The notes under the pieces were generated by a model. The model had not been told where the DNA came from, searched no databases, and was given only the letters and a program-made list of their open reading frames with translations. Position numbers and translations under genes: made by a program. A DNA stretch of 31,048 nucleotides. Origin: a virus. Numbering within the stretch: position 1 is the first letter of the stretch; each line of letters begins with the position of its first letter. Of this stretch, positions 511-16,096 are shown piece after piece. Where the stretch lies: positions 1 through 31,048 of IMG/VR virus record IMGVR_UViG_3300021503_000006; one strand, 5' to 3'.

Positions 511-532
511 CAATTAAGTCAAGGAATGAGTT

Positions 533-1000
533 ATGGAAAAAGAGAATAACGCGGGTGATAATTCTTCTAAGAGTATTAAGCTGGAAAGGGTGAGAGCATT
601 GGCTGGTTTGAATGAGGAAGAACGAAGAGTAATTTTGTATAATTCTTTAGCAAAAATGCAGGCTGAGTTACCTGTTGTTCTGAAAAATGCCAAGGGATTT
701 AATTATAAATATGCTGATTTTTCTGAAGTAGTTATGGTTTCTAGGCCTATATTATCTAAATATGGCTTATTTGTTATTCAATTTGTAGATTCTTTAAATA
801 AAGATTTTTTAATATTAGAAACTAGGGTTTGCCATTATTGTGGTGCTTATATACAAAGCAGAATACCTTTAATAGTTAATGAAGATGGCAAAAACCAGAA
901 CAAATTACAAAGATATGGAGCTGCTATAACTTATTTAAAAAGGTATCAATATTGTGCTATGTTGGGAATTGTTACAGATGATGATTCAAATGGAAAGTAA
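533..1000 (+). CDS. erf: ERF-family single-strand annealing protein, core-only copy
   Basis: This 155-residue protein matches the ERF family of phage recombinases, which anneal complementary single strands during recombination and genome circularisation. Typical features are visible in order: the KYADFSEVV segment (59-67), the RPILSKYGL segment (71-79), and the family signature around 129-146, GAAITYLKRYQYCAMLGI, followed by an acidic D-rich end. The family usually continues with a variable C-terminal domain; this copy stops directly after the core. The start is supported by AAGGAATGAG just upstream. The gene is followed after two bases by a second ERF-like gene, so the two are almost certainly co-transcribed and translated together. 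The family assignment is strong. How it divides labour with the second copy is inference. Confidence 0.85.
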   Translation: MEKENNAGDNSSKSIKLERVRALAGLNEEERRVILYNSLAKMQAELPVVLKNAKGFNYKYADFSEVVMVSRPILSKYGLFVIQFVDSLNKDFLILETRVCHYCGAYIQSRIPLIVNEDGKNQNKLQRYGAAITYLKRYQYCAMLGIVTDDDSNGK

Positions 1001-1002
1001 TA

Positions 1003-1683
1003 ATGGAAGATATTTTAAGAGCCTTACAAAAACTGGAGGTTAAAATTGATGCAGCTTTAGCTAGAGTAGTAGACGACCCCTATGAGTCTAAGGAAACTAA
1101 AGACCTTAACTTGGCTCTGGCTAGGGCTGCAGCTGAATACCCTAAAATCAAGAGTAATAGAAAAAATAATTATTATAAAAATTATTATTCTGACCTAGAT
1201 AATATAATGTTTCATGTGCGCCCAATATTGTCTAGGCACGGCTTATCTTTAACACAGAGAACATTTATAATGCCTGACGGTTCAACTGTTCTTAAAACTA
1301 GATTATGGCATTCTTCTGGCCAATGGATAGAATCCAGAACAAGATTAATCCTCCCTAGAGATGATCTTAAAACTTATATTTCTATCTTTAATATGATGAA
1401 GAAACAACAAGTTATCTCTATCCTTAATGTAACCTTGGAGGATGATGTTGAAGACGATGACTTAGTTAATGCTACAGGATTTACGCAGAAAAAAGATAAT
1501 CCTATTTCTATAAAAACTATAACTAAAGATCAACTTGAAGAGTTAGAACTAGAAATAGGAAACGATGAAAAATTAGCTACCATGATATTAGAAACCTACA
1601 ATTTACAAACTTTATCTGATTTACCTAAAGATAAATTCCTTTATGTTATTAATAAAATAAGGAAAATTAAGGCTTTAAAATGA
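1003..1683 (+). CDS. Second ERF-like protein with degraded core motif and extra C-terminal domain
   Basis: This 226-residue protein keeps the first half of the ERF fold: the YYSDLDNIMFHVRPILSRHGL segment lies at 61-81 and the TRLWHSSGQWIESRTRL segment at 99-115. Where the first copy has the conserved GAAITYLKRY signature, this one reads TYISIFNMMKKQQVISILNV (124-143), so most signature residues are gone, although the downstream acidic D/E run remains. Residues about 169-226 form a small helical domain (ITKDQLEELELEIGNDEKL and onward, ending in basic residues). ERF and RecT-like proteins often carry such a domain at this place. It looks like the product of an ERF duplication in which one copy kept the core and the other kept the tail. 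Its stop overlaps the next start (ATGA at 1680-1683). Confidence 0.75.
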   Translation: MEDILRALQKLEVKIDAALARVVDDPYESKETKDLNLALARAAAEYPKIKSNRKNNYYKNYYSDLDNIMFHVRPILSRHGLSLTQRTFIMPDGSTVLKTRLWHSSGQWIESRTRLILPRDDLKTYISIFNMMKKQQVISILNVTLEDDVEDDDLVNATGFTQKKDNPISIKTITKDQLEELELEIGNDEKLATMILETYNLQTLSDLPKDKFLYVINKIRKIKALK

Positions 1684-1928
1684 TAAGATATACTATTCCA
1701 ACTAAATTAGATAAAGGAAATTACGGAGAAATCTGCAAAGTTATAGAAGATCAAAAAACTTCTTATTACATTCAATTATCTAAAGATAAAGATCATTTTT
1801 TATGGATTTCTATAGGTGATTTTTTACAAAAAATCTTTCTTCAAAATTTGTTAGATAATCAAGATTTCTTAGATTCATGCTTAAAAAAGTGGGAGGAGCA
1901 ACAAGGCTTCTCCCAGCAGAAAGGATAA
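1680..1928 (+). CDS. Small hypothetical protein of the ERF operon
   Basis: This 82-residue protein is translationally coupled to the second ERF-like gene through an ATGA overlap. It has mixed charge and aromatic residues (IPTKLDKGNYG near 6-16, HFLWISIGDFLQ near 39-50), no signal peptide and no membrane segment. It probably folds as a small alpha/beta protein. I do not recognise a named family. The operon position suggests a role with the annealing proteins, for instance as a partner or regulator, but nothing in the sequence proves this. Its last codons double as the hairpin of a minus-strand terminator. Confidence 0.65.
   Translation: MIRYTIPTKLDKGNYGEICKVIEDQKTSYYIQLSKDKDHFLWISIGDFLQKIFLQNLLDNQDFLDSCLKKWEEQQGFSQQKG
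1883..1915 (-). terminator. Rho-independent terminator of the fibre operon, inside an opposing gene
   Basis: On the minus strand TGGGAGAAGC pairs with GCTCCTCCCA (10 pairs with one G-U) around a six-base loop. One C and then TTTTTT follow (plus strand 1888-1883). This is a textbook intrinsic terminator placed 28 bases beyond the stop of the last fibre-operon gene at 1943. It overlaps the coding end of the convergent plus-strand gene ending at 1928. On the plus strand the hairpin has no T-run after it, so it should act mainly leftward. Confidence 0.75.
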
Positions 1929-2259: not shown

Positions 2260-5004
2260 CTATAATTCATGGATATAAAATCCACTTACATGTGTATCTA
2301 CACCTTTTATGCCGGCTACTTTACCTCCTAAAGCTGCTATATTTATTGTTATACCAAACTCCATAGTGTATCCAGCATACATTCTATATGTTCCAGCCAC
2401 AAAGAATCCTTGTTCGTTATTGCCATTACTTGGTTGGTTGATAAATATAGGTGCACTATCTCCTTTTGGATTATGAGAAGCATCATATATTTGACAGTAA
2501 ATACTTAACTCATCTCCAGATGATGGAGCAGTCGTTACACCTATTGCTACTATACTTACAGTAAAGAAATAAACTCCTGTTTGTGGCGCTTCAAAATGTG
2601 CCGCTGTTCCAGCTCCGTCACCTACATAAAAATGATTACCATAATCAAAATGCTCATTCATAACAGCAGAAGAGCCTAGTCTATAATGAGTTCCATCACC
2701 AGTAACATTAGCTACATCAGTACTCTGATACGCAGAAAAACAAACAGTATAATTTTCTCTAATATTTATTTCATTGGAACCATAAGCAATAGCTAACGAT
2801 GGATCTAAAGAAGAAAGTCTACCTATATCGTATCTACCCATCGTGCTATTACCAATATATAAATCTCCATCAGATAAGCTATATGATCCTAATGGTACAC
2901 CTAATCTTTTATATTCATCATCATATTCATCGTTATTGTATACAACCATTGCTGGAACCCATGTTGGGTCTAAAGATGTAATAGCAGATTGTATGTAAGC
3001 TTTTGTATGATAGGTAGGATGTCCTATATGTAAAATAGAAGATTGATCTGGAATTCTTGAAGCCATAGTCCCTATATAAATACCGCCACCATCTTGGTAT
3101 GTATCACCAGCTTGATATCCTATAGATGTGCAGTTTTTTATTTCTCTATAGATTGGTAATAATCCACTACCATCATCATAAGGGACTTCTGTTTTAGCCC
3201 CTATTCCAATAGAGTTAGAACCTGAAGCTGAGTTCATAGCTTCATATCCTATACCTATTACTTCGTTAGGTTCCGTTCCATCTCTTGTAGTTGTTGCATT
3301 TACCCCAACACATCGCCCTGCATTTATACCTATAAAATAACTAGTATTTACGGCGTTATAATCTGGTGGGGTAGAAGATGTTTTTCTTTTTTGTAATGTC
3401 AACCTATGGAAAAATCTATCGCCTCCTAAGAAATAGACTCCTTGAGTCATGTCTACATCTGCGTCTGGTAGGTATATAGATTTATCTAGATTTACTGTGA
3501 TAGTGCTTCCACCGCCTGTTGTGTTAATATTATCTCCGCCGGATATATTAACAGTTCCAGCTGTAGGTGTAGCTGTTCCTGTATCTCCAGAAAGGGTATC
3601 AAGAGTGCCAGTGCCACCACCTCCTCCTGTTGTTGCTCTAAAGTTCATATATCCAGGATCTCCAAATCCTACAACCATTGTTCCATCAGAAGAAATAGGT
3701 GTTAGCCAGACTGGATTATCTCCTGTTTTACCTATCAAGAATTGCTCAGAATTCCCTTGGCTACTTGTGAGTTGATTTGAGCTATCAGCGAAGACTGTAC
3801 CTTGGCTTATAGGTACTGTTAAACTGTTACCGATAATTACATCATTTTTAAGGTTAATATCTAGTTCATCCCCAGAAGCGGAGGTAGATATGTTAGTTGT
3901 TCCTAGAATCTTTATTTTATTAGCTATGTTAGGAAGAGCCATTCCACTATCAGCTATGATTCTATCTTTATCTACTACAGTTACCAAATCTATGCTATTA
4001 ACTCCATTAGTGATTAGGACAGTATTGTCTGACGAAGTGAGATTGGCCCATGTTGGTGCTGTTCCACCTCCTATCAATAATTGGCCATCAGTACCATTAT
4101 TTGCAAATAATTCATTAGCATTATCAACTTGGACTACTCCACTTAATCCAGAAAATGTAGATGTTCCTGTAACTGTAATATTGTTGCATGTAATAAGGTT
4201 ATTAGAAGCAGCATTAACGCAGGATATGTTACCTGTTGTTGTTATAGAAGCTGCTGACATGTTATTTATAGAGATCGCAGAATTAAGATCGATAGTTATA
4301 TTATTAGAAGAAGCTGAAGTAGTGATATTGGTTCCATCGCCTAATATTTTTACTACACCTGATATTGGTACAGCATCACCGTTATCTGTTGTAAATGCGT
4401 TTAATAGACTTACTGTTCCTGCATTAACTTTAAGGTCTATAGAATTCGAGCCATTAGTGATAACGATACTTCCATTAGAAGATATTAGATGATCCCATCT
4501 AGGGATATCAGTATTACTTCCTATAAGAAGCATGCCATTAGTTATATTACTATCACTATATGTTTCAAATAATCCATCAGAGTTTGTTCTTAAAATGCCT
4601 TGATTAAGTAATGATACTGTTAATGTTCCTAAAATAGAGATATCGTTTCTTGTGTTTATAGTTATGATATTATCATGGCCTTCTGTGATAAGGTTGCCTG
4701 GTCCTAGGATTCTGATTTTATGGTCTATTACATTTGCTACGGAGACGTCTGTTACAAAGGTAAAGGCTGTGGATTCTATAGGGTAGATTCTTGTCCATCT
4801 AGAAGAATTTTCTTCGTAATTAAGTAGAGTATATATTTCGTTTTTTGAGTAATTTATCCATAAAGATCCGAACTGATATTCTTTAATATTTTCATCTTGA
4901 GGGTTAGTAGGAGAATAGATTATTTCTGGTGGATTAGTTGGATCGACGCCCATATATGCTAATGGTTGTAAGCCTGTGATATCTGGTCCTTTTTTTTTGC
5001 TCAT
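2260..5004 (-). CDS. Long tail fibre with N-terminal attachment module, beta repeats, YadA-like head repeats and C1q-like tip
   Basis: This 914-residue fibre has a modular layout. Residues about 11-75 are the shared N-terminal module: GLQPLAYMGVDPTNPPEII, then FGSLWINYSKNEIYTLL, ending in a W-x-R motif. Next come several copies of a unit of the form LLIGxxxxxPxWxxLxSSxxxxxITNGxNSIDL, alternating with DSGTATP-like units and a poly-Gly hinge (GGGGGTGTLDTL). Around residues 555-680 are YadA-head-like repeats (GIGYEAM, SIGIGAK, TSIGYQAG, IYIGTMA). Residues about 754-914 resemble a C1q/TNF-like jelly roll: FSAYQS, NVTGDGT, FDYGNHFYVGDG, FEAPQTGVYFFTV and a terminal SGFYI. Such domains act as trimeric receptor-binding tips. 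The whole should form a long trimeric fibre. The start is supported by AGGGGATAATT. Module identities are by motif, not by search. Confidence 0.8.
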   Translation of the reverse strand: MSKKKGPDITGLQPLAYMGVDPTNPPEIIYSPTNPQDENIKEYQFGSLWINYSKNEIYTLLNYEENSSRWTRIYPIESTAFTFVTDVSVANVIDHKIRILGPGNLITEGHDNIITINTRNDISILGTLTVSLLNQGILRTNSDGLFETYSDSNITNGMLLIGSNTDIPRWDHLISSNGSIVITNGSNSIDLKVNAGTVSLLNAFTTDNGDAVPISGVVKILGDGTNITTSASSNNITIDLNSAISINNMSAASITTTGNISCVNAASNNLITCNNITVTGTSTFSGLSGVVQVDNANELFANNGTDGQLLIGGGTAPTWANLTSSDNTVLITNGVNSIDLVTVVDKDRIIADSGMALPNIANKIKILGTTNISTSASGDELDINLKNDVIIGNSLTVPISQGTVFADSSNQLTSSQGNSEQFLIGKTGDNPVWLTPISSDGTMVVGFGDPGYMNFRATTGGGGGTGTLDTLSGDTGTATPTAGTVNISGGDNINTTGGGSTITVNLDKSIYLPDADVDMTQGVYFLGGDRFFHRLTLQKRKTSSTPPDYNAVNTSYFIGINAGRCVGVNATTTRDGTEPNEVIGIGYEAMNSASGSNSIGIGAKTEVPYDDGSGLLPIYREIKNCTSIGYQAGDTYQDGGGIYIGTMASRIPDQSSILHIGHPTYHTKAYIQSAITSLDPTWVPAMVVYNNDEYDDEYKRLGVPLGSYSLSDGDLYIGNSTMGRYDIGRLSSLDPSLAIAYGSNEINIRENYTVCFSAYQSTDVANVTGDGTHYRLGSSAVMNEHFDYGNHFYVGDGAGTAAHFEAPQTGVYFFTVSIVAIGVTTAPSSGDELSIYCQIYDASHNPKGDSAPIFINQPSNGNNEQGFFVAGTYRMYAGYTMEFGITINIAALGGKVAGIKGVDTHVSGFYIHEL

Positions 5005-5006
5005 AA

Positions 5007-7592
5007 TTATCCCCTACTTACTAAAAATCCAGACACTCTTGTATAGTTTGCTCCTACACCTATTGTTTTACCTGCTCCGCTAATAAATATTGCTACAGCA
5101 AACCTACATGTATCTCCTACATCCATATCTGCTAATGCTGCATAATAAAGAGATTGTTCTTCAAATACTTCTGGTAATAATGCTGGGTTAATGAGCTGAT
5201 ACGTTCTCTTTGTTGTTATAATCATTACAGGATCAACAGGTGGAGCTGGTGGTGGAGGTGCAGCTCCTTCCATGCCGGTGATATAAGTATCTATGGTAAA
5301 GTAATATTTACCTTTTACAGGAGCAGTAAAGTAACATTCTGAGCCAGATCCATTACCTCCATAAAAGTTATTACCATCATCAAATTCTTCAGTCATAACA
5401 GATTGAGTACCTAAGTAATATGTGGTTCCATCACCAGTAACATTAGCTACATTACCAGATTGATAAGCTCTAAAAGCTAACCTATTAGTCAATCTTAAAT
5501 CTATCGATCCAGGATTATTGATTATTGTTATAGAATTATCTGAAGATGTTAGATGAGCTCTTCGCATTCCATTACCAGTAGACCCTATTAGTAACTCTCC
5601 GTCTGTAGATGTTCCATTTGTGCCTAATTGTCCCGTTGATGGATTAATAAATACAGGCTCTCCGTAAATTTCGTTTTTTATGCCTTCTATGTAAACGTGA
5701 TATCCTCCAGCACCTATTCTTATAGTATGGTTATCCCCAGCAACACCGCCATGATTTATACAAACATTGTAACTTTCATTAGAGGTATAATTTATACCTG
5801 CACCTGTTCCTATAGCTACATTATGAGTTCCAGTAGTAAGATAATGAAGAGCATCAGTTCCAACAGCAACGTTACAGTCTCCTGTGGCTAAAGATAATAC
5901 ATCTTTTCCTATACCGACATTGTATATAGCAGGAGAACTTAGGTTGCCGGCGTTTTCTCCAAAGAATGTACCGCCTTTATTGTGTAAAACTCTCTTTCCA
6001 CCAAGGTAATAGAATCCTTCATTTGTAGAAGGATTACTATTAGGAAGATAAATAGATTTATCTAGGTTTACGGTAACAGTATTTCCTGTTGCGGAGGTAT
6101 TGATATTGTCTCCTCCTGCTATTTTTATATCTCCTGAACCATCAGGTGTAGCAGTACCAGAATCTGATGATAGAGAAGAAATATCACCTCCTCCTGATCC
6201 TCCTCCTGTTGCTTTAAAGTCTATAGTACCAGCTGTAAAATCTACTGTTATAGTTACGGAGCTATCTGAAGATGTTGGTGTAAGCCATTGAGGAGCTGTT
6301 CCTGTTTTACCGATATACATTTGGTTATTGGTTCCTTGAGAAGCAGAAAAGAGGCCTGAGCTATCAGCGTAAACAACGCCTTGTAGTCCTGTTACTTTTA
6401 AAGAGTTACCTATAACTACATCATCTTTTAGGTATACATTTAAGGTATCAGAGGCTGCTTCAGTACGTATATTAGTAGAGCCATACATTTTTACTGCACC
6501 TGCTACAGGAGTAGCTGTACCGCTATCTGCATCTAATTCATCAAGAGCTCCTCCTCCACCGCCGCCTGTAACTGTAAGATCTATACTATTAGCTCCATTA
6601 GTGATAGTTATAGAAGAGTCAGATGAGGTTAAATTAGCCCATATAGGAACAGAACCTCCGCCAATAAGTAACTGTCCATTTGTTCCATTTGTTGCAGATA
6701 AAACTCCAGAAGCATTAGCTATAACAACACCATTACTTAAACTAGATAAAGTTGTTGTTCCAGAAACTGTTAATCCATTACCAGCTGTTACTGATCCAGA
6801 AGCTGTTATATCGCCAGATGTAGTAGAAATATCTCCACTTGTAGCAGTAATATTGTTGTTTACTGTTAATGTTCCAGAAAGAGTAACATTGTCATCAAGG
6901 GCAACAGTGACAATATTACTTGTTCCTGATGTATGAATATTGGAGCCACCTAAAATATTTATTATGCCTGAAGTTGGAGTAGCTGATCCTGAGTCTGTAT
7001 CTATTTGTGATACATTACCGCCTCCTGATGGGGCTACTGCACGTATATCGATAGAGTTACTTCCAAAAGTAAAAAGAACAGAGTTGTCAGAAGATGTTAA
7101 ATGAGCCCAAGCAGGAGGGTTTGAGGAAGAACCTATAAGTAGTTGTCCATCTGTTCCATCAGCTAATGTTGTTAATGTATGAGAAGCGTTTACGTAGACT
7201 AAGCCTTGATTTAATGAGTTTACTGTTAATGTTCCAGGGATAATAGGATTATCATCGAGGCGTATATTAATAATGTTATTGATACCTTCGGTATTGATGT
7301 TATCGCCACCTAAGACTCTCAAAACTCCATCTTCTGGAGTAGCTGATCCTATGTTAGCTATATATTCTCCTACAGCTCCTGTTGGGTATAGTTGTACCCA
7401 AACAGGGTTACCATCGACAAAGTCTATAAGCATCCATAATTTATCTTGATTTTTTGTGATCCAGAGTGTGCCTATATCATGATCTTTATCTATGGATGAT
7501 GGATCTCTGTCGAAGACTATTAACTGTGGAGGTGTAGAAGCTTCTACTCCAAGATAAGCTAATGGATTTTTACCTGTTTTTACGTAAGACAT
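5007..7592 (-). CDS. Tail fibre paralogue with N-terminal attachment module and C1q-like tip
   Basis: This 861-residue fibre is a paralogue of its downstream neighbour. The N-terminal module is at about 8-72 (NPLAYLGVEASTPPQL, IGTLWITKNQDKLWMLI, WVQLYPTG). The shaft holds at least four LLIG/SSD repeats (for example GQLLIGSSSNPPAWAHLTSS), DSGTATP units and glycine hinges. Residues around 535-640 are head-like repeats (GENAGNL, NVAVGTDAL, NVAIGTGAG, IRIGAGG, then YIEGIKN). The C-terminal 157 residues (705-861) match the C1q-like tip of the 914-residue fibre: FRAYQS, NVTGDGT, FDDGNNFYGGNGSG, FTAPVKGKYYFTI and a terminal SGFLV. This tip has a proline-rich insertion (GAAPPPPAPPVDP near 772-784) that the other lacks. 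AAAGGA precedes the ATG. It is expected to form a trimer and bind a host receptor. Confidence 0.8.
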   Translation of the reverse strand: MSYVKTGKNPLAYLGVEASTPPQLIVFDRDPSSIDKDHDIGTLWITKNQDKLWMLIDFVDGNPVWVQLYPTGAVGEYIANIGSATPEDGVLRVLGGDNINTEGINNIINIRLDDNPIIPGTLTVNSLNQGLVYVNASHTLTTLADGTDGQLLIGSSSNPPAWAHLTSSDNSVLFTFGSNSIDIRAVAPSGGGNVSQIDTDSGSATPTSGIINILGGSNIHTSGTSNIVTVALDDNVTLSGTLTVNNNITATSGDISTTSGDITASGSVTAGNGLTVSGTTTLSSLSNGVVIANASGVLSATNGTNGQLLIGGGSVPIWANLTSSDSSITITNGANSIDLTVTGGGGGGALDELDADSGTATPVAGAVKMYGSTNIRTEAASDTLNVYLKDDVVIGNSLKVTGLQGVVYADSSGLFSASQGTNNQMYIGKTGTAPQWLTPTSSDSSVTITVDFTAGTIDFKATGGGSGGGDISSLSSDSGTATPDGSGDIKIAGGDNINTSATGNTVTVNLDKSIYLPNSNPSTNEGFYYLGGKRVLHNKGGTFFGENAGNLSSPAIYNVGIGKDVLSLATGDCNVAVGTDALHYLTTGTHNVAIGTGAGINYTSNESYNVCINHGGVAGDNHTIRIGAGGYHVYIEGIKNEIYGEPVFINPSTGQLGTNGTSTDGELLIGSTGNGMRRAHLTSSDNSITIINNPGSIDLRLTNRLAFRAYQSGNVANVTGDGTTYYLGTQSVMTEEFDDGNNFYGGNGSGSECYFTAPVKGKYYFTIDTYITGMEGAAPPPPAPPVDPVMIITTKRTYQLINPALLPEVFEEQSLYYAALADMDVGDTCRFAVAIFISGAGKTIGVGANYTRVSGFLVSRG

Positions 7593-7601
7593 ATTATTCC
7601 T

Positions 7602-9263
7602 TTAATAAGTTATTACATATCCGGGTATATAAGGTAACTGAAAATGTGTTGCAAAGTCGTATCCAGGAGTTCCTTTAGCTATTTTATGATTATCTGAGAC
7701 TGCTATCCACCATAAATCAGGGCATGTAATATCTACGTCTATACATTTAATGGTATCGCCTGTAGAGGTTAATGATCCTTCATCAAAAGGTGAGTTAAGT
7801 AAAAACATAGGTATTTTTTGGTGCCAAGGTTGGTTTTCGTGTATTCCGAACAATAATTGTCCTCGTGTATGGCCTATAAGAATATTGTTTGTAGTGGCTT
7901 TACAGGCTGTTGGGTAGTAATAAGTTCCAAGAGTATCTCCTGCTCGCATCCAGTTATATCCATTTTGTGATATTAATAATTGTTCATTAGCTTGTGTGCC
8001 ATCGGAGATAGTGAAATATCTATTACAGCCATAGGTTATATCTTTAAAGCCTGGAGTGTTATTAGTTCTGAAATAGTTTTGTGTAAATACATCGCTCCAT
8101 GTAGATGCGTCTGTACTATAAACTATGTTGGATTCTCCGCCTGATCCTTCTACAAATATCCATTTATCGTCATTAAATATAATTTTTTTCAGGTCTTCTA
8201 CGCCTGTAGATGTTGAGTGGTTGGTCCATGTAGTACCATCTGAGCTTTTAGAGTAACTTGTTGAAGTTCCTCCGCAGATCCATAATCCATTAGGTGAAGC
8301 TTTTCTATTGTGAGCAACACAGTAAATATGGTATCCGGCAGGGAAGTTACTTGTTCTCATGGTCCAGTTTATGCCATCTGGTGATGTAGCTAATTTTCCG
8401 TTAGCTCCTACTATAACCCATAATCCGTCAGGAGAAGCTTGTTGGTTATGAGCTACTCCGTAGATGGTATCTGTTCCGAACCCGGATGTTCTCATGGTCC
8501 AGGAATTTCCGTCTATAGATGTAGCTAGTTCTCCGTTTGTTCCAGCTGCTACCCATAAGCTATCTGATCCTGACTGGCCGTTATGAGCTACGCAGTGTAT
8601 TGTTCCTGTGAAAGAGTTAGTTTTTAAGCTAAAAGAGGGTTGTTGGTATTTTTGGCCTATTACATTATATAGGTCTGGGTAATCTGCTTGAGCTACTATT
8701 GATCCGTCGCAATCGAGGTAAGATGTTCCTGCTGGGATAGTATTATCGAACTTTAGGATGGTTCCTGGAGCTACGCCTTTAGTGGTTGTTGATATGGTTA
8801 TAGAGTGTGTTCCATTAACGATATTTATGCCTGATCCTGCTGTAAGGTGTGCCCAATCTGGGTTAGATCCTCCGCCTATTAAGAGTTGACCATCTGCTCC
8901 GTTAGGTAAATCTATGGATATGGTATTGGCATCTACTCTTGAAGAGGTGAGAGGATCGTTGCCTATGATATATACTTTACCATTGGCATCTGGGACAATA
9001 GAGTTACCATCGGCAGCTTCTATTGTTTGTACGTCATCGCCTCCTCCTGATGTTGAGAGTTGTAGCCAAGTAGCTACGCCTCCATTTTTATTAGTGAGTA
9101 CGTATATTCTATTTGCTGTTCTATATATCCAGATATCACCTATGACGTAGTTAGAAATATCATTAGCTGTGGGATCTCTATTGATGGTAAATACGTTAGG
9201 TGGTCTATCTGGATTAACTCCTACATATGCTAAAGGGTTTAATCCATTTAAATTTGAACTCAT
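7602..9263 (-). CDS. Tail fibre with attachment module and an Asp-box beta-propeller inserted in a tail-collar domain
   Basis: This 553-residue protein starts with the shared attachment module (7-70: GLNPLAYVGVNPDRPP, IGDIWIYRTANRIYVL, ATWLQLS) and one LLIG repeat (125-160). At about 163-206 it shows the first half of a phage tail-collar domain: PAGTSYLDCDG, then YPDLYNVIGQKY. The usual second half, an F-x-LP-x-x-x-G segment, appears only at the very end: FATHFQLPYIPGYVI, about 536-551. Between them lie some 320 residues of Asp-box repeats, such as SIDGNSWTMRTSGF, SPDGINWTMRTSNF, SSDGTTWTNHS and STDASTWS. These are typical of sialidase-like beta-propellers. A sugar- or surface-binding head inserted into the collar is the simplest reading. 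AGGAG in the last codons of the upstream gene serves as ribosome binding site. Confidence 0.78.
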   Translation of the reverse strand: MSSNLNGLNPLAYVGVNPDRPPNVFTINRDPTANDISNYVIGDIWIYRTANRIYVLTNKNGGVATWLQLSTSGGGDDVQTIEAADGNSIVPDANGKVYIIGNDPLTSSRVDANTISIDLPNGADGQLLIGGGSNPDWAHLTAGSGINIVNGTHSITISTTTKGVAPGTILKFDNTIPAGTSYLDCDGSIVAQADYPDLYNVIGQKYQQPSFSLKTNSFTGTIHCVAHNGQSGSDSLWVAAGTNGELATSIDGNSWTMRTSGFGTDTIYGVAHNQQASPDGLWVIVGANGKLATSPDGINWTMRTSNFPAGYHIYCVAHNRKASPNGLWICGGTSTSYSKSSDGTTWTNHSTSTGVEDLKKIIFNDDKWIFVEGSGGESNIVYSTDASTWSDVFTQNYFRTNNTPGFKDITYGCNRYFTISDGTQANEQLLISQNGYNWMRAGDTLGTYYYPTACKATTNNILIGHTRGQLLFGIHENQPWHQKIPMFLLNSPFDEGSLTSTGDTIKCIDVDITCPDLWWIAVSDNHKIAKGTPGYDFATHFQLPYIPGYVITY

Positions 9264-9264
9264 A

Positions 9265-10200
9265 TTAAACTCCTGGTTGAGCTGTTGTTATTACACCATT
9301 ATCTCCTATAGCAATAAAAAGATCTCTATTGGAGTCATAATGTACGTTATTTAGGTCTGAGGATACGCCTGATGATCTGCTGGTCCATGTTCCTGTAGGA
9401 TCTGTAGCTGTAAGCAGTGTTGGGCCATCACCTACTACAACCCATCCACCATTACCGTAAGCAACACCTCTAAGACTTGTAGATACGCCAGATGTACGTT
9501 GTGTCCAAGTAGAACCATCGGTAGAAGTTGCAATTTTACCGCTATAACCTACTGCTACGAATATCCCGGAACCTCCATAAGCTATTCTTATGATATGAGA
9601 AGATCCAAAAGAAGATGTTACATTTGACCATGTTCCTCCAACGGAAGTAGCTCTATACATGTAGCCGCTATTCATGACGCAGACATAGATATTTTTATCG
9701 GTATTCCAGGCTATACCGTTGACTGTAGATCCGCCAGAAGGAGACCAATTAGTCCAAGAGCCATCTATATCTGTTGTATATTGTAATTCATGTCCTGTGG
9801 ATCCTCCGCCTCCTCCACAGAACCAATATGTTCCATCGTAGTATAAAGCTCTTGGAACATCGTCTCCAAGTGGATAAGTTCTATCTGTCCATGTTCCGGT
9901 AGGATCAGTAGCGGTATAAACATGTTTACCATCAGAAGCTGTTGCCCATTTATTGCCGTATCTACAGCTATATACTAATCCAGATGTATCATGGTTTTTG
10001 GAGGTCCATGTAGATGTTGGATCTGATGCGTATCCTGATATACCGTTTGCAGATGTATCCTGTCCTGTTATAAAGCAATAAGAAGAGGAGCAGTCTATGC
10101 CCCTCAAAGTATCAGTGGTATTGAGCCAGGATCTGGCAGTCCAGGTAATGGCTTCTCCTCCAGAAGAGGATCTTCTTCCTAAGATAGCATGTATTATCAT
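9265..10200 (-). CDS. Stand-alone Asp-box beta-propeller protein, probably seven blades
   Basis: I choose the ATG at 10200 (311 residues). It overlaps the upstream stop as ATGA and has AGGAGGAGAT before it; a longer frame from 10224 lacks such support. The protein is almost entirely Asp-box repeats: SDPTSTWTS, TDPTGTWTDRT, TTDIDGSWTNW, TSVGGTWSNV, STDGSTWTQRTSG and TDPTGTWTSRSSG. The N-terminus (AITWTARSW) looks like the second half of a repeat and the C-terminus (GVITTAQPG) like the first half. The ring may thus close by joining both ends, making seven blades. There is no attachment module, so it may ride on a neighbouring fibre or bind surface glycans. No catalytic sialidase residues (Arg triad, Tyr) are obvious, so binding is likelier than cleavage. 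Confidence 0.75.
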   Translation of the reverse strand: MIIHAILGRRSSSGGEAITWTARSWLNTTDTLRGIDCSSSYCFITGQDTSANGISGYASDPTSTWTSKNHDTSGLVYSCRYGNKWATASDGKHVYTATDPTGTWTDRTYPLGDDVPRALYYDGTYWFCGGGGGSTGHELQYTTDIDGSWTNWSPSGGSTVNGIAWNTDKNIYVCVMNSGYMYRATSVGGTWSNVTSSFGSSHIIRIAYGGSGIFVAVGYSGKIATSTDGSTWTQRTSGVSTSLRGVAYGNGGWVVVGDGPTLLTATDPTGTWTSRSSGVSSDLNNVHYDSNRDLFIAIGDNGVITTAQPGV

Positions 10201-11657
10201 TCTATATCTCCTCCTAGAACCCAAGTATCTGTATCTATTTTGATTAACGCTGCCATAGAGTATTGGTCTTTAGTTTTATTGGCAGAGTTTGGAGCGTTAA
10301 TAGTGACGCCTGATCCTGCGGAGATAGTAACAGTTCCTGTATTTTTCTGATAAATGATGATTTGGGTTCCTGTTTCGAAAGCAACGGAGGAGTTAGGTGG
10401 TACTGTTACTGTGATATCAGAAGAGTTATCCATGGATAGGAATTTACCGGCATCAGAAAGAACTAAGGTATAGCTTGTTCCTGTTTGGGAGTTTATATTT
10501 AGATTGGTATCTAGGGTGATAGTGCCGGTACCTGTTGTTACATTTACTCCTGCGCCGCCTGATAGGGACTGTGTAGCTAACTGATGATCTGATGCTATGG
10601 CTACTAATTTAGACGAAGAAGAGTTATTGTTATAAATACCAGCTATGTAACATTTATTTTGTTGTCCTTCAGAAGAACCATCTGTTCCTATCCTAATAAC
10701 ATTACTTTCTCCGCCTGATTTTCCTGAGTTTTGTAAGTATATATTGGAACCCGAAGAAGAACCAAGATTAGTTCCTGCATATCTTCCAAGTATTAGATTA
10801 GCTTTACCTCCAACACCACCTCCTGCTTGGTGTCCTATAATAAGGTTATGTGTTGCTGAGCTTCCTATATTTAATCCAGCTTCGTAGCCTATACATATAT
10901 TAGCATCACCTAATGTAAGAGCTCTTCCTGCTTTATAACCAATAAGAGTATTATTTGATCCTCCTGAGAGGAGGTTATAACCTGCCTCATTACCTAGAAC
11001 TAGGCTTGTTCCTGAGGATACATATTTAGCAAATTGATAGCTGTCTAGGGATATTGTTCCTGAAAAATTTGGGTTATTAGGAATACCTATGGTTATAGTA
11101 TCTGAGGAGCCAGAGGTTTCTATTTCGTTTGATGTGCCTACTATTTTTATGGTTCTGGAAGAAGGGGTAGCTGTTCCTGAATCTGAAGAGAATGTTGTAG
11201 GTATATTAGCTACTGAGAGATCTGCGTCGTCGAAGGTTATGGTTCTTGTTGTAGAAGTAGTAATATTACCTACGGAGAATGCTAATTTCTTAGTGTTATC
11301 AGAGTCATCTTTAATTCTGAATTGTGTGTCTAGGAACTCGGGGCCTCCTGTAGTAGAAGTTATGGTGACTGTATCGGAGGATGCTGAGGTATTGATACCT
11401 GTACCGCCTACTATTTTTATGGTTCTGGAAGAAGGGGTTGCGGTACCAGAGTCAGAGGAGAATATTGTTGGTATGTTGGCTATTAACAGATCAGCGTCGT
11501 CGAAGGTTATGGTTCTGGTGGTTGAGGTTGTGATACTGCCTACGGAGAAAGCGAGTTTTTTTGTATTATCGGCGTCGTCTTTTATTCTAAATTGGGTATC
11601 GAGGAATTCTGTTCCTCCTGATCCTCCGGTAGTTCCTTTAGTAAATATTTGAGACAT
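10197..11657 (-). CDS. Tail fibre with two near-identical 90-residue N-terminal repeats and head-like repeats
   Basis: This 486-residue fibre lacks the shared attachment module. It instead opens with two tandem units (17-106 and 107-193) of the form EFLDTQFRIKDDxDNTKKLA, TTRTITFDDADL, SSDSGTATPSSRTIKIVG. Such F-R-I-x-D-x-x-D-x-T-K-K segments are common near the start of phage fibres. Residues about 225-310 carry YadA-head-like repeats (LVLGNEAGYNL, TLIGYKAG, ICIGYEAG, LIIGHQAG, LILGRYAG), followed by an IRIGTDG and CYIAGIYN segment. The end (about 395-486) is a beta-rich domain with SYTLVLSDAGKFLSMDNSS, TVTVPPNSSV and a final DTWVLGG, a pattern common in phage fibre C-termini. TAGGAGGTCATT before the ATG contains the stop of the upstream gene. 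Confidence 0.78.
   Translation of the reverse strand: MSQIFTKGTTGGSGGTEFLDTQFRIKDDADNTKKLAFSVGSITTSTTRTITFDDADLLIANIPTIFSSDSGTATPSSRTIKIVGGTGINTSASSDTVTITSTTGGPEFLDTQFRIKDDSDNTKKLAFSVGNITTSTTRTITFDDADLSVANIPTTFSSDSGTATPSSRTIKIVGTSNEIETSGSSDTITIGIPNNPNFSGTISLDSYQFAKYVSSGTSLVLGNEAGYNLLSGGSNNTLIGYKAGRALTLGDANICIGYEAGLNIGSSATHNLIIGHQAGGGVGGKANLILGRYAGTNLGSSSGSNIYLQNSGKSGGESNVIRIGTDGSSEGQQNKCYIAGIYNNNSSSSKLVAIASDHQLATQSLSGGAGVNVTTGTGTITLDTNLNINSQTGTSYTLVLSDAGKFLSMDNSSDITVTVPPNSSVAFETGTQIIIYQKNTGTVTISAGSGVTINAPNSANKTKDQYSMAALIKIDTDTWVLGGDIE
11079..11609 (-). repeat. Tandem protein repeat encoded by diverged DNA
   Basis: The two N-terminal units of the 486-residue fibre are 63 of 68 identical over their first 68 residues (17-84 against 107-174, counted by eye). 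Their DNA differs at many third positions, for example in the codons for the FSVG and TTRTITF segments. The repeat is therefore conserved mainly at protein level. Confidence 0.7.
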
Positions 11658-14632: not shown

Positions 14633-14880
14633 CAGTATTAGGTACATTACCCAATGGTAATCTTCTCCTACAATGTGAATGCGGCTTGAAATTCGAACAA
14701 ACACCAGAAAAAGCAAAAAAAATAAAAGAATGTTTTTTATGCCATTTTAAAGTAATCGATGGAAAAAAAGATTTATTTAAACAAGTTCAAGCCCCGGGAT
14801 TATCAAAAAGAGATAATAGACGCTCTGGAGAATCAGGGGTACAGACGTATTTTAATGGTTTGGCCAAGACGCGCTGGTAA
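14560..14880 (+). CDS. Possible second zinc-ribbon protein overlapping the large terminase gene
   Basis: This 106-residue frame overlaps the previous gene by 73 bases and the large terminase gene by 122 bases. Its only non-overlapping part carries a second four-cysteine ribbon: LTVLGTLPNGNLLLQCECG, then KIKECFLC. The layout matches the upstream protein (a strand pair, CxCG, a basic linker, CxxC), so the two look like diverged duplicates. The N-terminus is very basic. No clear ribosome binding site precedes the ATG at 14560 or 14569, so translation could depend on coupling or on a frameshift from the gene before. The last 40 codons share DNA with the terminase start and are probably unconstrained. 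Confidence 0.45.
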   Translation: MRKMLQKRTKKRTQKKPRNIQNKLTVLGTLPNGNLLLQCECGLKFEQTPEKAKKIKECFLCHFKVIDGKKDLFKQVQAPGLSKRDNRRSGESGVQTYFNGLAKTRW

Positions 14881-16096
14881 AGATCTCCTTTGCTGGAATA
14901 TAATCATTCGACAAGCCCTCCAAAAAGTAGGCGTTTATTATTACATATTCCCAACATATTCCCAAGCTAAAAAAGTAATTTGGGACTCCATGACAAATGA
15001 CGGAGTAAGATTCAGAGACTTCATCCCCCAAAAATTAATAGAATCCTCCAACACTCAAGAAATGAAAATCATCCTCATAAACGGATCCCTAATACAACTC
15101 ATAGGATCAGATAACATAGATTCTATAGTTGGCACAAACCCTATAGGATGCGTGTTTTCAGAGTATGCTCTACAAGATCCTAAAGCTTATCAGTTTCTTA
15201 GACCAATATTAGTTGCTAATAAAGGTTTTGCTATATTCGAATCTACCCCTCGAGGTAGACGTAATCATCTCTATGAACTCTATCAAATAGCTTCTAATTC
15301 TGAAGATTGGTTCTGCTCCAAACTAACACTAGACGATACTCAACATATCTCCTTTGATGTTATAGAAAAAGAAAAAGCAGAAGGCCTCATGTCCGAAGAT
15401 CTTATACGCCAAGAATATTACACCTCTTTTGACCGAGGAGTAGAAGGCGCTTACTACACAAGATATTTAGACCAAATGAGACTTAATAACCAAATAACAA
15501 AAGTTCCTTGGGAACCAGCCTTCCTCGTCCACACAGCTTGGGACCTTGGTGTAAGAGATGCCACATCAATAATCTTCTTCCAAACAATAGGAACAACTCT
15601 GAGAATAATAGATTGCTACGAAAATACAGGCCAAGGCTTAGAATTTTACGTCAAAAAACTCTCCGCTCTACCCTACAATTACGGAAAACATATAGCTCCC
15701 CATGATATAAAAGTACGAGAATTAGGAACCGGCGTCTCAAGACTAGAAAAAGCAAGACAACTAGGAATAAGATTTACAGTAGCCCCTAATCTACCAATAG
15801 AAGACGGTATAGAAACTGTTAGATCAACCCTGCCTAAAACATGGATAGACGAAGAAAAATGTAAACCTCTTATTACAGCACTAGAATCATATAGACAAGA
15901 ATATGACTCTAAACGAAATATTTATAAAGGTATTCCCCTTCATGATAGCTCTTCTCATTTCAGCGACGCCTTCCGATACCTCTGTTTATCTCTACCAAGA
16001 ATAAGAGATGGTTTGTCAGCAGAAGAAATAGAAAGAAATTATAGAGAAGCTTTATACGGAGAAAAAGAACTTCCTCCTTTTTTCCGAGATTATTGA
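14759..16096 (+). CDS. terL: Large terminase subunit (packaging ATPase and nuclease)
   Basis: This 445-residue packaging motor cuts concatemers and pumps DNA into the prohead through the portal. The ATPase half shows Walker A, WPRRAGKD (35-42), a Walker B-like strand, IGCVFSEYA (129-137), and the coupling segment ESTPRGRRN (161-169). In the Walker B position Ser-Glu replaces the usual Asp-Glu, which as I recall also occurs in related phage terminases. The nuclease half shows WDLGVRD (261-267), HD (315-316) and HFSDAFRYL (400-408), giving acidic residues D262, D316 and D403 for metal binding. An in-frame TAA at 14753 rules out an earlier start. Its ribosome binding site is weak (AAAG), so it may be coupled to upstream translation. 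Confidence 0.92.
   Translation: MEKKIYLNKFKPRDYQKEIIDALENQGYRRILMVWPRRAGKDLLCWNIIIRQALQKVGVYYYIFPTYSQAKKVIWDSMTNDGVRFRDFIPQKLIESSNTQEMKIILINGSLIQLIGSDNIDSIVGTNPIGCVFSEYALQDPKAYQFLRPILVANKGFAIFESTPRGRRNHLYELYQIASNSEDWFCSKLTLDDTQHISFDVIEKEKAEGLMSEDLIRQEYYTSFDRGVEGAYYTRYLDQMRLNNQITKVPWEPAFLVHTAWDLGVRDATSIIFFQTIGTTLRIIDCYENTGQGLEFYVKKLSALPYNYGKHIAPHDIKVRELGTGVSRLEKARQLGIRFTVAPNLPIEDGIETVRSTLPKTWIDEEKCKPLITALESYRQEYDSKRNIYKGIPLHDSSSHFSDAFRYLCLSLPRIRDGLSAEEIERNYREALYGEKELPPFFRDY

Follow-up and report, generated by a model that had tools for sequence, protein, structure and literature searches.

Why does a virus carry two different genes of the ERF family of annealing proteins side by side, and do their products work together? 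Phage annealing proteins have been studied as one-gene systems and are used as recombineering tools. In the 31,048-base virus record analysed here (the window), which is without terminal repeats, two such genes, ERF1 and ERF2, occupy one end on the + strand; the ERF2 start follows the ERF1 stop after 2 bases, and a small gene that overlaps the ERF2 stop comes next. The structural genes are of the P22-like podovirus type; the portal matches PF16510 (E 8e-78), and the terminase has 40-43% matches in phages such as Pelagibacter HTVC010P. On the minus strand, positions 2260-11657 encode several large tail/spike-like proteins with common repeated DGQLLIG and TSSDxSxxxxxGxNSIDL segments. The features of the ERF locus are:

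521..525, + strand: AAGGA, a Shine-Dalgarno-like site 7 bases 5' of the ERF1 start (read from sequence)
533..1000, + strand: ERF1, a core-only ERF single-strand annealing protein of 155 aa (Pfam PF04404, phrog_2324, AF2 model)
917..946, + strand: the canonical alpha3 signature GAAITYLKRY, ERF1 residues 129-138 (pattern match)
992..997, + strand: GGAAAG, a weak Shine-Dalgarno-like site for ERF2, within the end of ERF1 (read from sequence)
1003..1683, + strand: ERF2, a divergent ERF of 226 aa with a complete core and a C-terminal domain (Pfam PF04404, phrog_155, AF2 model)
1366..1425, + strand: helix alpha3 of ERF2, residues 122-141, with the altered signature YISIFNMMKKQQ (AF2 model and pattern)
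1525..1677, + strand: the C-terminal three-helix domain of ERF2, residues 175-225 (AF2 model, hhalign)
1680..1928, + strand: an 82-aa protein whose start overlaps the ERF2 stop (ATGA) (homologue in G001)

The 82-aa protein gave no family match in Pfam or PHROG; a homologue lies at the same position in the related record G001 (L003:1498-1764, E 2e-13), and the protein is conserved only there.

Both genes belong to the ERF family. ERF1 scores 73.8 bits (E 1.9e-20) and ERF2 39.9 bits (E 5.3e-10) against the Pfam ERF profile (PF04404), above its cut-off of 25, and the PHROG Erf-like families match ERF1 at 2.8e-28 (phrog_2324) and ERF2 at 3e-21. The two proteins align with 30% identity over 105 aa, in agreement with an earlier note, made from the sequence alone, that had described two ERF-like genes two bases apart. 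Neither protein matched the Rad52 family in Pfam at E up to 10. Like the known phage ERFs of the SSAP superfamily, such as P22 Erf and D3 Erf, both exceed the cut-off of the profile and are predicted to have the core fold, and ERF2 has the usual C-terminal domain. Unlike them, they occur as two where a genome normally has one, ERF1 is without the C-terminal domain, and ERF2 is without the alpha3 signature.

Relatives of ERF2 were found in the IMG/VR records G001/G002, G003, G004/G005, G006, G007 and G010/G011, giving with the window a comparison set of seven lineages, mostly incomplete contigs from several metagenomes. Every relative record has exactly two ERF matches except G010 and G011, so that both ERF types are present in six divergent lineages including the window, all of one podovirus-like group, with ERF2s that are 33-76% identical. 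The earlier note had proposed a comparison of gene neighbourhoods. Such a comparison shows that the pair is retained in six lineages and that a spacing of just 2 bases occurs in the window alone; in the relatives the two genes lie 0.3-4 kb apart. Some have a gap of 0.3-0.7 kb with another gene between, and in G007 the terminase and portal genes separate the two ERF genes by about 4 kb, with both retained. Searches for a host, scanning 84,980 genomes of bacteria and archaea twice, gave no relative, and a viral scan with the window ERF1 gave none.

The earlier note had named single-gene relatives as evidence against its reading; one of the seven lineages is of this kind (G011, ERF2 only). G010 is identical to G011 over 13.5 kb and likewise has ERF2 only. 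G011 is apparently a whole genome, since its portal gene is cut by the contig ends into two pieces, which correspond to residues 1-76 and 79-665 of the G007 portal and so leave a gap of two residues. We detected no ERF1, RecT or Sak4 in G011, and its ERF2-type protein has the same altered helix as the others. As the sole detectable annealase of an apparently complete genome, this ERF2 suggests that the protein is not strictly dependent on ERF1.

In three lineages the gene immediately upstream of ERF1 encodes SSB; the window and the records G001, G007 and G011 gave no SSB. A YqaJ domain, sought as the mark of an exonuclease partner, was found in none of the seven lineages. Two stand-alone proteins of about 110 aa (L014:4409-4741 and L040:7596-7928) are related to each other (E 6e-11), and the latter resembles phrog_434, a family of RecE-like exonucleases, over that family's C-terminal part only (E 0.003); in G004 the protein of this size is encoded just upstream of SSB and ERF1. 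The large terminases of G003 and G006 (L023:2239-4692, L024:1-2368) are 790-820 aa long, with an intein-like insertion at Walker A (PRRC-LAKDTH...GD.ILS) that the window terminase (14759-16096) does not have. In L005, short repeated peptides (NTSVVNTSV, DTSVADTSV, SFAKRGEALRSFAKRGEAL) occur in many ORFs, including the N-terminus of the G003 ERF1, which suggests a mobile repeat inserted into coding sequence.

Models of both window proteins are predicted to have the complete SSAP core (helix, hairpin, helix, three strands, alpha3). The AF2 model of ERF2 has a pLDDT of 80.7 and a pTM of 0.53, that of ERF1 a pLDDT of 78.5, and alpha3 is intact in each (residues 122-141 in ERF2, 122-144 in ERF1). 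The pair had been called split-looking, and ERF2 was said to keep the front half of the fold; both cores are complete, and in the ERF2 model every element, including helix 122-141, is present. The only significant PDB fold match for either model is Gp77 (9y6u), an ERF solved with the immunity protein RAZR, at E 1.5e-5 for ERF1 and, by Foldseek, E 4.2e-5 with a TMt of 0.68 for ERF2. Gp77 (9y6u, 9y9c) is also the best sequence match, at 7e-15 for the ERF2 profile A1 and 2e-13 for the ERF1 profile A2. Its helix is canonical (GSAFTYGRRY), however, and that of ERF2 is not.

In the published SSAP fold, alpha3 packs across the sheet, and the only recognisable sequence signature of the superfamily lies in the ssDNA groove (PMC9870868). 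The DNA site of RAD52 includes Lys152, Arg153 and Arg156 (PMC9989933), which we infer to correspond to residues of the ERF helix. Written as G[AST]xx[TS]Yx[RKQ]RY, the alpha3 signature of ERFs is present in 22/22 reference ERFs and 6/6 ERF1s, compared to 0/7 ERF2s, as the earlier note had observed for the ERF2 of the window. Where other ERFs have TYxRRY, the ERF2s have NMMKKQ, MHLTRT, NSMKRF (three times), SELRKS or NELKKS. The aromatic residue preceding the basic pair is gone from all of them, and a basic residue at the position of the invariant Arg is retained in all seven. The ERF2 front motifs and C-terminal domain are strongly conserved. Because the signature is missing from 7/7 ERF2s and present in all 28 other proteins, we call ERF2 a divergent protein of the ERF superfamily.

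A C-terminal helical domain is common among ERFs, though not universal. In the ERF2 model it consists of helices 175-185, 189-198 and 209-225, and ERF2 matches phrog_155 over residues 6-224, reaching position 269 of 308. Aligned with the C-terminal domains of canonical ERFs, it gives an hhalign probability of 96 (E 4.4e-9), and the domains of all seven ERF2s outscore all 200 shuffles. By these profile comparisons it is the ordinary ERF C-terminal domain, not an addition to ERF2 as had been proposed, and ERF1 is the protein that is without it. The description of ERF1 as core-only with an intact GAAITYLKRY signature was accurate: the helix matches the pattern and the protein ends after the core, its phrog_155 match stopping at 191 of 308. 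The domain is missing from all six ERF1s. The architectures are thus complementary in six lineages, with ERF1 matches ending at phrog_155 positions 191-205 and ERF2 matches at 260-270. In L005, L006 and L012, the three lineages whose SSB gene is adjacent, the ERF1 C-terminus is NESNFF, SENFF or LSPYF, which recalls the acidic-aromatic tips of SSBs, and the adjoining SSBs are themselves without such a tip. Several canonical ERFs terminate in NIENF, SIEKF or FNEF.

The two genes have different histories. The seven ERF2s form one clade with support of 100/100, or 98/98 with the helix removed, and score 130-376 bits against each other compared to at most 67 bits against anything else. The ERF1s are not one clade in the best tree, where a single ERF1 clade is not rejected (p-AU 0.403); the best tree also separates ERF1 from ERF2, and a joint clade of the two is not rejected (p-AU 0.226). 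Outside the trio G003/G004/G006, the ERF1s score no higher among themselves than against the ERFs of unrelated phages. These match scores suggest independent origins of the ERF1s, with fast evolution as the alternative, and ERF1 may have been replaced during evolution. Within the trio, ERF2s are 74-76% identical and ERF1s 39-63%, ERF1 evolving about twice as fast as ERF2. Being faster-evolving and not a supported clade, the ERF1s do not demonstrate duplication in place. Portal identity correlates with ERF2 identity (Spearman 0.62) and not with ERF1 identity (0.14) over ten non-independent pairs.

For the ERF2s of the trio, pN is 0.17-0.19 compared to a pS of 0.67-0.77, and pN is far below pS in both ERF1 and ERF2, with synonymous sites near saturation and dN/dS therefore rough. 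The ERF2 of G011 has been under purifying selection since its split from G007. On these sequence comparisons, the ERF2s are under purifying selection and more constrained than ERF1, contrary to the possibility, raised in the earlier note, of an inactive second copy under no selection. A split gene or pseudogene is ruled out by the complete predicted cores of both proteins together with purifying selection.

We consider the pair real and probably a case of work shared by two proteins. Our preferred interpretation, to which we give slightly less than an even chance, is that ERF1 and ERF2 divide the work of a single annealase, by analogy with yeast Rad52 and Rad59. We infer that ERF1 anneals, that the tail of ERF2 handles SSB, and that the two act together. 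ERF2 would be the lineage's own, vertically inherited protein, with a complete core, a changed DNA-groove helix and the usual C-terminal domain; by analogy with the phage 80alpha protein Sak, its tail would engage and load ssDNA that is coated with SSB. For Sak, annealing of SSB-coated DNA needs both the C-terminal domain and the SSB tail (PMC11846896). ERF1, the faster-evolving core-only ERF with the canonical helix, would supply ordinary annealing. In yeast there are likewise two annealing-fold paralogues, one with a C-terminal tail (Rad52) and one tail-less (Rad59), but the tail-less partner is accessory there and the kinship to ERFs is only distant; the comparison is one of working only (PMC3496973).

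We count several findings in favour of this division of labour: co-retention of the pair in six lineages, the complementary architectures, the ERF2 clade, purifying selection, the SSB gene upstream of ERF1, and the retention of both genes in G007 despite the terminase and portal genes between them. Against it we count G011, where ERF2 works without ERF1, and the failure to find SSB in the four lineages named above. The lack of a supported ERF1 clade, with ERF1s outside the trio matching unrelated ERFs equally well, argues against a tightly co-evolved interface.

Alternatively, ERF1 and ERF2 could be independent annealases that form their own homo-oligomers and serve different steps or substrates, for example end joining or circularisation as opposed to replication-fork repair, with ERF2 binding DNA in a variant way. 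This is consistent with an ERF2 that stands alone in G011 under purifying selection, with the retention, in 7/7 ERF2s, of a basic residue where other ERFs have the invariant Arg, with genes that are often non-adjacent, and with ERF2, not ERF1, tracking the phage lineage. It would, however, make the complementary architectures of six lineages a coincidence, and we regard it as somewhat unlikely. A further possibility is that the second, exchangeable ERF (ERF1) is a back-up that protects recombination or diverts bacterial sensors. Redundancy against immunity is a serious rival, though less probable than independent annealases and on balance quite unlikely. The sole solved ERF structure that we found is that of Gp77 bound to RAZR (9y6u), in the closest trio the rate of ERF1 evolution is about double that of ERF2, and replacement of ERF1 may have occurred. 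Several bacterial defences sense or block annealing proteins: besides RAZR with Gp77, Sak is inhibited by Stl2 (PMC11846896) and Gabija is licensed by Exo-Erf (PMC12407980). An arms race has been connected with the diversity of SSAPs (PMC8093625). Yet there is no known defence gene or host for these phages, and simple redundancy explains neither the clade-wide change of the ERF2 helix nor the missing ERF1 tail.

The loss of a family-wide signature throughout the ERF2 clade could also mean that ERF2 no longer anneals and that its fold has been turned to a scaffold, a regulator or an SSB-loading factor. We think this very improbable, given that its front motifs and C-terminal domain are strongly conserved, that basic residues persist in alpha3, and that G011 has no other detectable annealase. 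That ERF2 is a decaying duplicate or an artefact of assembly or annotation has next to no likelihood: in seven lineages, drawn from several metagenomes, the frame is open, residues are conserved and selection is purifying.

If ERF1 and ERF2 do divide the work of one annealase, they could do so as separate rings on the same DNA or in a mixed ring, as the earlier note had suggested. In a mixed ring, ERF1 would give canonical annealing grooves and ERF2 altered grooves and SSB-engaging tails. We consider a mixed ring unlikely. The ERF2-only G011 makes an obligatory mixed ring less likely, and it is further opposed by the poor tracking of the phage lineage by ERF1 compared to ERF2 and by genes that are usually non-adjacent. 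If present, it would be the first phage annealase of two different ERF subunits. A conserved diverged pair would in any case be a natural separation of core annealing from a partner-binding tail, and it bears on how phages sustain recombination when bacteria sense annealing proteins.

Phages with two different ERF annealing proteins are a little-known group. A literature search for phages with two Erf proteins turned up nothing but an unrelated paper on plants. That one ERF per phage is the rule, as the earlier note had assumed, is borne out by a canonical ERF query, which matched 877 records of a phage collection at 880 places, and by 20 reference ERF phages, a diverse, non-random choice, in 19 of which a profile search found a single ERF. 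The exception, Bradyrhizobium phage ppBjS10J-1 (OP596615), likewise has two adjacent genes annotated as ERF family, but their cores are identical, the signature is present in both and one copy has a foreign C-terminal end, indicating a recent duplication and not a diverged pair. With 19 of 20 phages having one ERF and the exception having identical cores, we conclude that a diverged ERF pair is rare. The tandem ERFs of ppBjS10J-1 lie at L043:5887-7573, and the foreign end resembles HNH/AP2 homing-endonuclease segments.
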